Assembly (NCBI GenBank): GCA_019119395.1
Contig: DWXC01000003.1
Coordinates: forward strand, 1-58,528
Source: Candidatus Borkfalkia stercoripullorum
Lineage (GTDB): Bacteria; Bacillota; Clostridia; Christensenellales; Borkfalkiaceae
Direction of reading: 5' to 3'
Length of the DNA stretch: 58,528 nucleotides
Shown here: piece by piece, positions 17,824-20,756 of the stretch
Layout: each line of letters begins with the position of its first letter
Position numbering within the stretch: the first letter of the stretch is position 1
Notes under the pieces: model-generated
What the model was told of the DNA's origin: nothing
The model's database searches: none
What the model saw: the letters and a program-made list of their open reading frames with translations, nothing else
Program-made: the position numbers and the translations under genes

Positions 17824-17939
17824 CGGAATTTAAACTTGAGTCGAAGGGTTCGCCCGACGGCAAAGGGGAGATACATAAAGTCTTTGGCAGCAAAGATTTG
17901 CGCCTCCTTTTTGCGTTGCGGGCAAAAGGGAGGCTTTTT
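17824..17939 (+). promoter_or_regulatory. Attenuator-like leader with alternative hairpins masking the ribosome site
   Basis: GCCTCCTTTTTGC (17902-17914) pairs with GCAAAAGGGAGGC (17922-17934), a 13-bp stem with one G-U pair that buries the GGGAGG Shine-Dalgarno and is followed by five Ts directly before the ATG at 17940. An upstream segment, GCAAAGGGGAG (17860-17870), can instead pair with 17904-17914 using two G-U pairs, freeing the ribosome site. A small hairpin with a TTCG loop (GGG-TTCG-CCC, about 17846-17855) lies 5' of that. This is an on/off switch layout. I recognise no known riboswitch class. Confidence 0.65.
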
Positions 17940-18188
17940 ATGTCGGAAACCAGGCTGGCGGTGGTCAGCATCATCAACGAATCGATGGACAGTTCCGAAA
18001 AGATGAACGCGCTTCTGCGCGATTTCGGGGAATACATCGTGGGCAGGATGGGCATACCGTACAAACTGAAAGGGGTTTTCGTACACGTCATCGTCATCGA
18101 CGCGCCGCAGGAGATCATCAACGCTCTGACCGGCAAACTCGGCATGATCGAAGGGGTGTCCGCAAAGACCTTGTTTTCCAAATATTAA
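17940..18188 (+). CDS. TM1266-family putative iron-only hydrogenase system regulator
   Basis: An 82-residue ferredoxin-like (ACT-type) small protein. The pattern RLAVVSIINES, NALLRDFGEYIVGRMGIPY, VIDAPQEIINALTGKLG and GVSAKT matches the TM1266 family, which is often found near [FeFe]-hydrogenase and maturation genes and is presumed regulatory; no ligand is established. Here it heads an ABC importer operon with no hydrogenase gene in the window. ATG 17940 sits immediately after the terminator-like hairpin of its leader. The next gene begins 53 bp downstream. Confidence 0.88.
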   Translation: MSETRLAVVSIINESMDSSEKMNALLRDFGEYIVGRMGIPYKLKGVFVHVIVIDAPQEIINALTGKLGMIEGVSAKTLFSKY

Positions 18189-18241: not shown

Positions 18242-19279
18242 ATGAAAAAGACAGTTGCCGCGGCCATGTCCGCGGTCATGCTCGCGCTCGGCGCGGCGGC
18301 TTTCGCCGCATGCGAAAACGGCGGGTCAGATGTCGTTACGCTGCAATCTTACAACAGCGAAAGTCAGATCGTCGCCCTTCTGCAACAGGCGCAGAACAGC
18401 GGCGCCGAAGCGTACGGGGTACTCGGAGAGCCCTCGCTCACCAACGGAAAGGCGGAGGTCTCCTCCATATCCGTCGCCGTGGATTTTCAGGAGGAATGGA
18501 CGGCTATCACGGAATTTGACGGCTATCCGCAGGCTTCCCTGATCGCCCGCGGCACCTTTGCGCAATCGGATCCCGCGTTCATCGCGGCTTTTTCCGAAGC
18601 CCTCAAAGACAACGCGTCATGGCTTTCGCAGGAGGAAAATATCGATAAATTCGAGCAGAAGCTCGCCGCGTACAACGCCGCCGATCCCGACGGTTATCAG
18701 ACGACGCTTGCGGGCAAAACGTATACAACGGAGACCATCGCGAACTGCAATCTCGGCTATCAGAGCGCGCAGGAGGTAAAGGCGTCCGTCAAAGATTATG
18801 TGAACAGGCTGAGCGGCTCCGAGCCTGCCGACGGCTTTTTCTATGCCGCGCCCGCGTCCGGCGCGCAGGCGCAGGCGGAAGGGGATAAAACGGTCGACGT
18901 GTATCTGCCCGACGGCACGCCCGCGTTCGCGCTCGCCAAAGTGTTCACGGAAGGGGTGAGCGTCGCGGGCTATACGGTGCGCTTTCACATCGTAGCGGCG
19001 GGGCAGATCGGCACGATCTTTTCTTCCACGGCGGGCACGGAAGCGGAGGCGGATCTTGCGGTCATGCCCACCATCGGCGCGGCAAACGTGTACGCGAAGG
19101 CGGGCGGCATACAGCTCGTATCCACCCATGTTTTCGGCAATCTCTATATAGCTTCCGTGAACGGCACGGCCGATTCTTTGGAAGATCTGAGGGGCAAAAC
19201 GGTGTATACGACCGCCGCCACGACCATTCAGCTGCTGCAATATCTCCTCACGGCGAACGGCATCGAATATACCGTTTGA
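18242..19279 (+). CDS. ABC importer substrate-binding lipoprotein, apparently circularly permuted
   Basis: A 345-residue protein with a lipoprotein-type signal peptide (Cys24; a slightly atypical FAAC lipobox). In the related NMT1/THI5-like binding proteins I know, the order is a DGAPALALAKL-type start, a THGNLY segment, GKTV, an ANGIEY hinge, then the GEP, GYPQA and PADGFFY segments. Here the second half comes first (GVLGEP 59-64, GYPQA 94-98, EPADGFFY 194-201). A Gly/Ala/Gln linker (202-216) follows, then the first half (VYLPDGTPAFALAK from 220, THVFGNLY, LRGKTV), ending at ANGIEYTV exactly where the missing junction would be. ATG 18242 has AAAGGAG 8 nt upstream. Confidence 0.85.
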   Translation: MKKTVAAAMSAVMLALGAAAFAACENGGSDVVTLQSYNSESQIVALLQQAQNSGAEAYGVLGEPSLTNGKAEVSSISVAVDFQEEWTAITEFDGYPQASLIARGTFAQSDPAFIAAFSEALKDNASWLSQEENIDKFEQKLAAYNAADPDGYQTTLAGKTYTTETIANCNLGYQSAQEVKASVKDYVNRLSGSEPADGFFYAAPASGAQAQAEGDKTVDVYLPDGTPAFALAKVFTEGVSVAGYTVRFHIVAAGQIGTIFSSTAGTEAEADLAVMPTIGAANVYAKAGGIQLVSTHVFGNLYIASVNGTADSLEDLRGKTVYTTAATTIQLLQYLLTANGIEYTV

Positions 19280-19296: not shown

Positions 19297-20058
19297 ATGA
19301 AGAGCGGAGCGAAAAAGATACTTCTGAATATATTGTTCCCCGTCGTCGTAACGGCGGCGATCTTCCTCATTTGGGCGATCGCCGCCGCCTCGATCGGCGC
19401 GTCGCTCATACTCCCTTCGCCCGCGGCGGCGATACGGGAGTTTTTCGCGTATTTTGCCGACGCCTCTTTTTGGCGCGCGCTGGGGAATACGATGTGGCGT
19501 TCGCTCTATTCTTTCCTCATTTCCTTTGTGCTGGCTTTCGCGTTCGCCGCGCTCGCGTACCGCTTTCCTCTCGCAAAGCGGCTTGCGGATCCCTTCGTGG
19601 CGTTTATCCGCGCGGTGCCCACGATGTCCGTCATACTGATCCTGATCATCTGGCTCAACGCGAGCCTCGCGCCCGCGGTCGTGGCGATCATCGTCATCTT
19701 TCCCACACTCTATTCGGCGTTTTCCGCCTCCATCGGCGGGGTAGACGCGGGCCTTGTGGAAATGTGCCGCGTTTACGGCGTGAGCACCAAAGACAAGCTC
19801 TGCAAACTCTATATCCCGCACATGGCGAGGGGGGTGTTCGAGGGGAGCGCGAGCGGGTTTTCCCTCAACATCAAGCTCGTCATCGCGGCGGAGGCGCTCG
19901 CGCACACCGCGCGCAGCATCGGCAACATGATGGATTTCGCGCAGGCGCTTCTCGAAACGGAAAAGCTCTTTGCGCTCACCATTGCGGCGGTCGTTTTGTC
20001 CGTCGCGTGCGAATGGCTTATAAAGCTGATCGGGAGGGCGGTGATACGATGGAAATGA
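19297..20058 (+). CDS. ABC importer permease (SsuC/TauC/ThiX-like)
   Basis: A 253-residue inner-membrane permease of the binding-protein-dependent type, with about six helices. The ATPase-coupling EAA-like loop is around EMCRVYGVSTKDKLCKLYIPHMARGV (about 149-174). FVAFIRAVPTMSVILILIIW is typical of sulfonate, taurine and HMP-type transporters. It lies 17 bp after the binding protein and overlaps the ATPase gene by 10 bp. Ligand unknown. Confidence 0.9.
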   Translation: MKSGAKKILLNILFPVVVTAAIFLIWAIAAASIGASLILPSPAAAIREFFAYFADASFWRALGNTMWRSLYSFLISFVLAFAFAALAYRFPLAKRLADPFVAFIRAVPTMSVILILIIWLNASLAPAVVAIIVIFPTLYSAFSASIGGVDAGLVEMCRVYGVSTKDKLCKLYIPHMARGVFEGSASGFSLNIKLVIAAEALAHTARSIGNMMDFAQALLETEKLFALTIAAVVLSVACEWLIKLIGRAVIRWK

Positions 20059-20756
20059 GCTGTTTTTCCGGCAAAAACATTCTTGTGGAAAACGTCGGCA
20101 AAAGGTACGGCGCGACGCCCGTCTACGAAAATTTTTCCCTCGAAATCGAAGAGGGGAGGATCACCTGCCTTCTGGGCGCGAGCGGGTGCGGCAAAACCAC
20201 GCTTCTGAACATGCTCGCGGGGCTTACGCCTTACGAGGGGAAAATAGAGAACGTGCCCGAGCGCATTTCTTATATTTTTCAGGAGGAGCGGCTTTTGCCC
20301 AACCTCACGGTAAAGCAGAACGTGGCGCTCGTGCTCGGCAAAAACGCAGACGGAAAGAAAATTTCCGAAATGCTCGAAAAGGTGGAACTTTCGGGTAAGG
20401 AGAACGCGTACCCCTCCGAACTTTCGGGCGGGCAGGCGCAGCGTGTATCCATAGCGCGCGCGTTCGCGTACCCTTCGGGGCTGATTTTGATGGATGAACC
20501 CTTTTCGTCCCTGGATACGGCGCTCAAAATACGTCTGATCGGCGTGTTCTGCCGCCTTTGGCAGGAGGAAAGGCGCACGGCGGTGTTCGTCACCCACGAT
20601 GCGGAAGAGGCATACATGCTCGCCCACCGCGCGGTATTGTTAAAGGACGGAAAAATCGCGGCGGATATCGGCGAAAACTCGCCCGTCCCCCGGCCTTACG
20701 GAGAAAATTCTCCGTTCAAACAGAAAATACTTGCCGAAATGCTCAAAAGCGAATGA
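20049..20756 (+). CDS. ABC importer ATPase
   Basis: A 235-residue ATPase that powers the importer: Walker A GASGCGKTT (about 43-51), Q-loop FQEERLLPNLTV, signature LSGGQAQR, Walker B LILMDEP, H-loop VTHD. ATG 20049 overlaps the permease end and follows GGGAGG (20033-20038); ATG 20055 is an alternative. The C-terminal tail is short and there is no extra regulatory domain. Confidence 0.92.
   Translation: MEMSCFSGKNILVENVGKRYGATPVYENFSLEIEEGRITCLLGASGCGKTTLLNMLAGLTPYEGKIENVPERISYIFQEERLLPNLTVKQNVALVLGKNADGKKISEMLEKVELSGKENAYPSELSGGQAQRVSIARAFAYPSGLILMDEPFSSLDTALKIRLIGVFCRLWQEERRTAVFVTHDAEEAYMLAHRAVLLKDGKIAADIGENSPVPRPYGENSPFKQKILAEMLKSE

Follow-up and report, generated by a model that had tools for sequence, protein, structure and literature searches.

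The gene at positions 18242 to 19279 of the window, the 58,528 nucleotide stretch of Candidatus Borkfalkia stercoripullorum DNA that was analysed, encodes a lipoprotein that belongs to an NMT1/SsuA-like ABC transporter and is circularly permuted. The two halves of the mature protein have been swapped in frame between the signal peptide region and the stop codon, with about 12 linker residues now bridging the former termini. Many changes of order have taken place in this orthologous gene across related genomes, with cuts at approximately positions 86, 124 and 170 of a 302-position profile of the ordinary protein. The favoured reading, to which a probability of roughly 0.88 is attached, is that the gene provides an NMT1/SsuA-like importer with its lipid-anchored substrate-binding protein, and that the mature domain of this protein was permuted in place, repeatedly and at three cut sites, with fold and binding retained; the participation of tandem duplication is a less certain part of it. 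The features of the gene and its cluster are as follows.

17940 to 18188, plus strand: TM1266-like small protein (PF21699/TIGR03959; profile match), heads the cluster
18242 to 19279, plus strand: permuted NMT1/SsuA-like substrate-binding lipoprotein, 345 amino acids, in the order signal, C half, linker, N half
18242 to 18313, plus strand: signal peptide with lipobox-like AFAAC, Cys24 at 18311 to 18313 (sequence pattern only)
18329 to 18847, plus strand: C-terminal half of the ordinary protein, here first (model positions ∼125 to 301)
18848 to 18892, plus strand: linker rich in Ala, Gly, Ser and Gln, bridging the old C terminus (FFY) and the old N terminus (VDVYLPDG)
18893 to 19276, plus strand: N-terminal half of the ordinary protein, here last (model positions 1 to ∼124), final residues ANGIEYTV
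19297 to 20058, plus strand: ABC transporter permease (PF00528; profile match)
20049 to 20756, plus strand: ABC transporter ATPase (PF00005; profile match)

After the signal peptide and Cys24, the protein has VVTLQSYNSES from residue 31, followed by GVLGEP, GYPQA and EPADGFFY. Beyond the linker come YLPDGTPAFALAK, THVFGNLY, LRGKTV and ANGIEYTV, and then the stop. An original prediction made from the DNA letters had listed these segments as standing in swapped order and had concluded that an NMT1-like binding protein had undergone natural circular permutation; the residues are present in the 345 amino acid open reading frame in exactly that sequence, and profile comparisons bear out the permutation. 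The ordinary-order profile, of 302 positions, was built only from 80 homologues in ordinary order. The native mature chain scores 154.1 bits against it, its best single stretch covering model positions 130–301. Rotations of the chain that start at residues 206–217, within the internal linker, score 305.3 bits each and cover positions 1–301. As rotation doubles the score, the window protein is a circular permutant: only in its reordered form does it align with ordinary homologues along the whole length. Five congeners (G028, G018, G011, G022 and G015) have proteins in ordinary order in which both halves are 52–67% identical to those of the window protein, in the opposite order. The possibility that the native order is the usual one among close relatives was checked in family alignments and does not hold. 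The only clear full-length solved relative is 3hn0, which we take to have the Type II fold. The ordinary profile aligns with it as a single collinear stretch over nearly the whole chain, and the permuted profile aligns as two stretches in reversed order.

Family membership is obscured in the native chain, which has no Pfam match. When reordered, the window protein scores 18.5 bits against PF09084 (NMT1), slightly below the cut-off of 20.5, and has a weak match of 23.4 bits to Phosphonate-bd, also below cut-off. Ordinary homologues score 35.4 bits (L154) and 19.1 bits (L005) against PF09084, that is, above and slightly below the same cut-off. Profile matches to 3hn0_A have E values of 3e-21 and 2.2e-29 for two ordinary groups (A3 and A4) and 3.5e-17 for a permuted group (A2, in two pieces). 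The adjoining permease and ATPase genes and the signal peptide with its lipobox-like pattern are as expected of an NMT1/THI5-like binding protein and its transporter. The protein resembles NMT1/THI5-like and SsuA-like binding proteins (PF09084, TIGR01728; 3hn0) in apparently belonging to the same family by sequence once reordered and in its permease and ATPase partners, and differs from the NMT1/THI5-like proteins in the reversal of its halves and the lack of a native Pfam match. The scores do not place it in the aliphatic sulfonate-binding SsuA subfamily (TIGR01728), the full and mature proteins reaching 20.6 and 20.8 bits, far from the curated cut-off of 163.5. No Type I binding-protein family in Pfam was matched by the window protein, native or reordered, or by the ordinary homologues, and homology to NMT1/SsuA-like proteins would rule out a permutant of the TpMglB-2 ‘Type Ic’ kind described below. 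Collinear annotation can miss permuted proteins, as the window protein, with no native match and weak matches when reordered, illustrates.

The permease and ATPase genes lie directly downstream of the binding-protein gene on the same strand, with the TM1266-like gene upstream. All 189 loci with enough sequence downstream, irrespective of order, have a same-strand permease homologue no more than 1.5 kb away on that side (63/63 loci for the ∼124 cut, 19/19 for ∼170, 3/3 for ∼86 and 104/104 ordinary). Among complete proteins, the lipobox-like pattern, taken as a pattern only, is present in 82 of the 89 that are permuted and 119 of the 126 in ordinary order. The TM1266-like gene belongs to a family named after iron-only hydrogenase systems. 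Of 211 relatives, of both orders, with enough sequence upstream, 133 carry it there; it leads the cluster in 40/62 loci of the ∼124 cut, 18/20 of ∼170, 4/4 of ∼86 and 71/125 ordinary ones. Upstream of this gene in the window is a conserved leader (17834 to 17939, plus strand) with the consensus AACCTGAGTCGAAGGGTnCGCCCGACGGCAAAGGGGAG, followed by a terminator-like hairpin and a T run immediately before the ATG. It folds better than shuffled sequences (z = −3.65; 1 of 200 shuffles equally good), and 14 leaders, the window's included, chosen from 133 distinct ones, can be aligned. No Rfam family was matched at gathering score in the window or in 16 loci; there were two weak matches below cut-off. 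The leader looks like an unassigned riboswitch-like element.

Permuted homologues, for which the original prediction had proposed a search, were found in other genomes. Within the genus, 37 of the 40 genomes searched have a match, 7 of them permuted (one, G009, seen partly because of a contig end) and 30 ordinary. At the family level, 277 of 301 genomes, drawn from a larger group, have a match, and many more permuted proteins are among the matches listed. In the order, 317 of 396 genomes match the ordinary profile. Thirty of these, chosen for having two or weak matches, were searched again, and 11 have permuted proteins, which belong to three further family-level groups (four in f3, one in f24 and six in f32); a contig-end fragment in f24 (G658) with the same beginning as the permuted form was left out of this count. 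Permuted forms thus occur in four family-level groups of the order. Among 391 genomes of the class, of which 112 have a match, no collinear permuted match was found outside the order among the matches listed, and where both pieces of a genome were among these matches, their order was ordinary. Seven records named Anaeroplasmataceae (L083, L085, L087, L094, L098, L099 and L101) have proteins in ordinary order that group with the window's subfamily, which suggests either transfer between distant gut bacteria or misnamed records.

The final set consists of 223 distinct homologues, mostly from metagenome-assembled genomes, of which 130 are ordinary and 93 permuted. Eight rows were dropped from 231 (L016, L139, L279 and L284–L288) as incomplete, at contig ends or representing other binding proteins; L064 is a copy of L016, and L277, L282 and L283, with frames below 200 amino acids, were left out. 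The cut sites form three clusters on the ordinary profile: CUT124 with 68 proteins including that of the window, CUT170 with 21 and CUT86 with four. In most permuted proteins, the two pieces meet on the profile within about 10 positions; in a few divergent ones, the match of the first piece begins up to about 30 positions late. Linkers are similar at every cut and rich in A, G, S, T and E, with median lengths of 12 amino acids for CUT124 (range 10–30, n = 65), 11 for CUT170 (n = 21) and 13 for CUT86 (n = 3). The CUT86 proteins, L226 (G128), L230 (G170), L266 (G589) and L267 (G464), span two family-level groups and sit apart on the tree; L230, at a contig edge, was assigned by hand from its start at model position 89 and its tail. 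A permuted homologue in Eubacteriales iMGMC-975 (L139, 6001–6984) has an in-frame stop within its N half and may be a pseudogene, an assembly error or a split gene.

In SsuA of Xanthomonas citri, domain I contains both termini, and P107-T109 and G204-G211 form the two hinge segments (PMC3839906). The ∼86 cut falls after a GNLY[IV]V strand and before a DLKGK motif, at about residue 90–91 of 3hn0 by alignment, where the first crossover between the lobes should be. By an alignment read by hand, the ∼124 and ∼170 cuts correspond to about residues 126 and 160 of 3hn0, and they would lie between the crossovers or near the second. The original prediction had placed the window's cut at the interlobe crossover. 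This is not borne out: the cut is at model position ∼124, some 38 positions past the first crossover-like site, probably in a loop inside lobe 2 and away from the crossover. Cuts at the crossover-like site do occur, in the four CUT86 proteins. As judged from these alignments, all three cuts would be at or within lobe 2, with the lipid-anchored end shifted from lobe 1 to lobe 2 or the hinge, and the transporter would evidently tolerate the shifted anchor. The old termini probably lie together in lobe 1, so that a short linker can close them, and the new termini would be tolerated in surface loops.

To estimate the number of order changes, the 223 proteins were put into ordinary order, and a quick maximum-likelihood tree was built with the cut-site columns excluded. 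This tree, in which the long rows L272 and L278 are unsurely placed, has 22 order changes, at least 14 of them forced by branches with SH-aLRT of 95 or more, a count that does not separate gains from reversals; none of 200 shuffles gives a number as low as 22. The ordinary versus permuted count is likewise 22, and thus the tree does not require one permuted form to have turned directly into another. Smaller samples gave 5 changes (104 proteins) and 15 (166 proteins). A careful tree was then made from 45 rows, chosen by hand once the previous trees were available; it has nine changes, seven of them forced. Since 3hn0 and the relatives outside the order have the ordinary arrangement, this arrangement is taken as ancestral. 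On the tree, the window protein and that of G036 form a clade inside an otherwise ordinary group made up of the five congeners named above. The permuted protein of G033 lies beside the window/G036 pair, bootstrap values around the window being moderate (81–84), and it may or may not stem from the same permutation event as the window protein.

That the swap took place within the gene is seen most directly in two genomes of one genus group, the permuted G111 and the ordinary G121. The flanks are collinear, with 80% identity upstream and 72% downstream, and the DNA halves trade places between them: for the C half, L065 2425–2911 corresponds to L154 1951–2437, and for the N half, L065 2960–3281 corresponds to L154 1550–1871, both at 77.7% identity. 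A search of 26 permuted genomes gave, in 25 of them, no second full-length member of the subfamily, only weak distant binding-protein matches or nothing. The exception, G298, 58% complete, has an additional full-length ordinary copy (the two copies are at C36:17848–18729 and C61:10619–11551), which could be a transition state, a transferred paralogue or contamination. A general habit of permutation in the neighbourhood is ruled out, as only two of 10,485 homologous pairs of flanking reading frames other than the binding protein were flagged, against 1,503 of 5,902 binding-protein pairs; all four sequences in the two flagged pairs are antisense frames of the binding-protein gene. Sixteen positions are at least 90% conserved in the 130 ordinary proteins, and at every one of them 90% or more of the permuted proteins, taken together, carry the same residue. 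These conserved positions and the transporter genes that still adjoin point to a kept function. The fold and ligand binding, by Venus-flytrap closure, are probably unchanged, and the permuted protein would most likely bind a small ligand between its lobes and deliver it to the permease, in the manner of its ordinary orthologues.

Could the permuted proteins all descend from one ancient permutation that was inherited and sorted? The ∼124 cut hardly varies in position among the 68 of 93 permuted proteins that have it, as one ancestral event predicts, but such a history is very improbable. In the 45-row set, forcing the 11 CUT124 rows into one clade lowers the log-likelihood by 653 units and is rejected by the AU test (p = 1.7e-76, under the models used), and a single CUT124 origin appears in 0% of 200 bootstrap trees; a single CUT170 origin, less strongly excluded, appears in 4%. 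There are, moreover, three distinct cuts, and permuted and ordinary proteins are 75–78% identical within one genus group (g30). Trees of the separate halves have 18 changes for the N part (6 forced) and 17 for the C part (8 forced), and thus the pattern is not the product of one half. The same agreement weighs against fewer permutations followed by recombination or horizontal replacement between permuted and ordinary genes, which would make the order appear labile. Transfer may occur, as the second copy in G298 and the ordinary homologues in Anaeroplasmataceae-named records near the window's subfamily indicate, yet both halves would need replacing with their order unchanged, the flanks of the closest pair are collinear, and 25 of the 26 permuted genomes show no second full-length match of the subfamily; we regard this explanation as improbable, if less so than a single origin. 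The window and most relatives come from draft metagenome assemblies, and an assembly or binning artefact might be suspected. This has a negligible likelihood, given that the same in-frame order is found in the separate genomes G000 and G012 (99–100% identical; G012 is placed in the window's genus), in G036 (65%), G033 (49%) and many others, that some permuted genes are on long contigs, for example one of 655,911 bases (G173), and that the flanking genes show no swaps once the antisense frames are discounted.

Repeated permutation in place is the preferred history, and the simplest candidate route to it, also put forward in the original prediction, is tandem duplication with loss of the outer pieces. 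Each event may have started when the mature part was duplicated in tandem and in frame behind a single signal peptide, giving signal-N-C-N-C, after which the first and last pieces would have been lost. Such a route would keep the signal peptide, produce an identical junction at the old termini every time and allow any cut. The main alternative is fission and re-fusion: the gene would have split in two, and its parts would have been joined again the other way round. This alternative gains some credit from the proteins classified, among which no duplicated intermediate (N-C-N-C or N-C-N) was found, L226, once a candidate ‘NCN’ intermediate, having turned out to represent the third cut point; the in-frame stop that splits the permuted gene L139 also fits. 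On the other hand, a secreted half would require a second signal peptide, none of the loci examined was seen to encode a lone half with a signal peptide of its own, and the half-only matches checked (L277, L279 and L282) run into contig ends. Fission and re-fusion seem unlikely, if clearly less so than replacement. Two further results count against the duplication route. With the exception of the split L139, no second half of at least 80 residues lies beside the gene in 230 loci, and microhomology does not exceed the control at the three boundaries in 122 ordinary genes, where the mean longest shared word is 6.64–6.75 as compared with 6.88 in the control, the middle boundary being approximate. 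A more speculative idea, and a rather doubtful one, is that the gene is an intragenic rearrangement hot spot, its mature part being repeatedly re-opened at one of three loops and re-closed in place by a short linker, probably in both directions and in at least four family-level groups, driven by a DNA-level process or by selection on the anchored lobe. If this were true, candidate drivers would be recurrent in-frame tandem duplication or circularisation, or selection on the lobe that carries the lipid anchor.

Natural circular permutations are usually treated as single old events between distant families. One precedent exists among binding proteins: TpMglB-2 (Tp0684) and its relatives are circularly permuted glucose-binding lipoproteins, for which the term ‘Type Ic’ was proposed (PMC4990184). 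As in the window protein, a lipid-anchored ABC substrate-binding protein has been naturally permuted; its permuted relatives occur in Gram-positive gut commensals, and tethering has been suggested as a reason (PMC4990184). Unlike the window family, TpMglB-2 is a Type I (cluster B) sugar-binding protein for which one permuted topology is described (PMC4990184). The window gene is NMT1/SsuA-like, with three cuts and many order changes in one orthologous operon gene, and its ordinary and permuted members are found within one genus. Duplication followed by truncation has been proposed as the route for permuted DNA methyltransferases and for saposin/swaposin, and permutation intermediates are reported to be documented for the methyltransferases (PMC3320104). 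The window gene differs from the methyltransferases in that no intermediates were found and that opposite orders occur in close relatives at the same locus. In the open-access literature of PubMed Central, no report was found of natural permutation in NMT1/SsuA-like binding proteins or of recurrent permutation within one binding-protein family. As far as could be seen, then, the kind of change is known from one other class of binding proteins, TpMglB-2; what is new is its recurrence, at three different cuts, and how closely related the opposite forms are.

The same gene, beside the same transporter genes, is thus found in four arrangements of the chain, and close relatives can have opposite ones. 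These natural orthologues allow testing of how permutants arise and which sites accept new termini, as well as whether order matters for folding, anchoring or transport. The repeated reshuffling of one nutrient-binding gene constitutes an unusual natural experiment in protein evolution.
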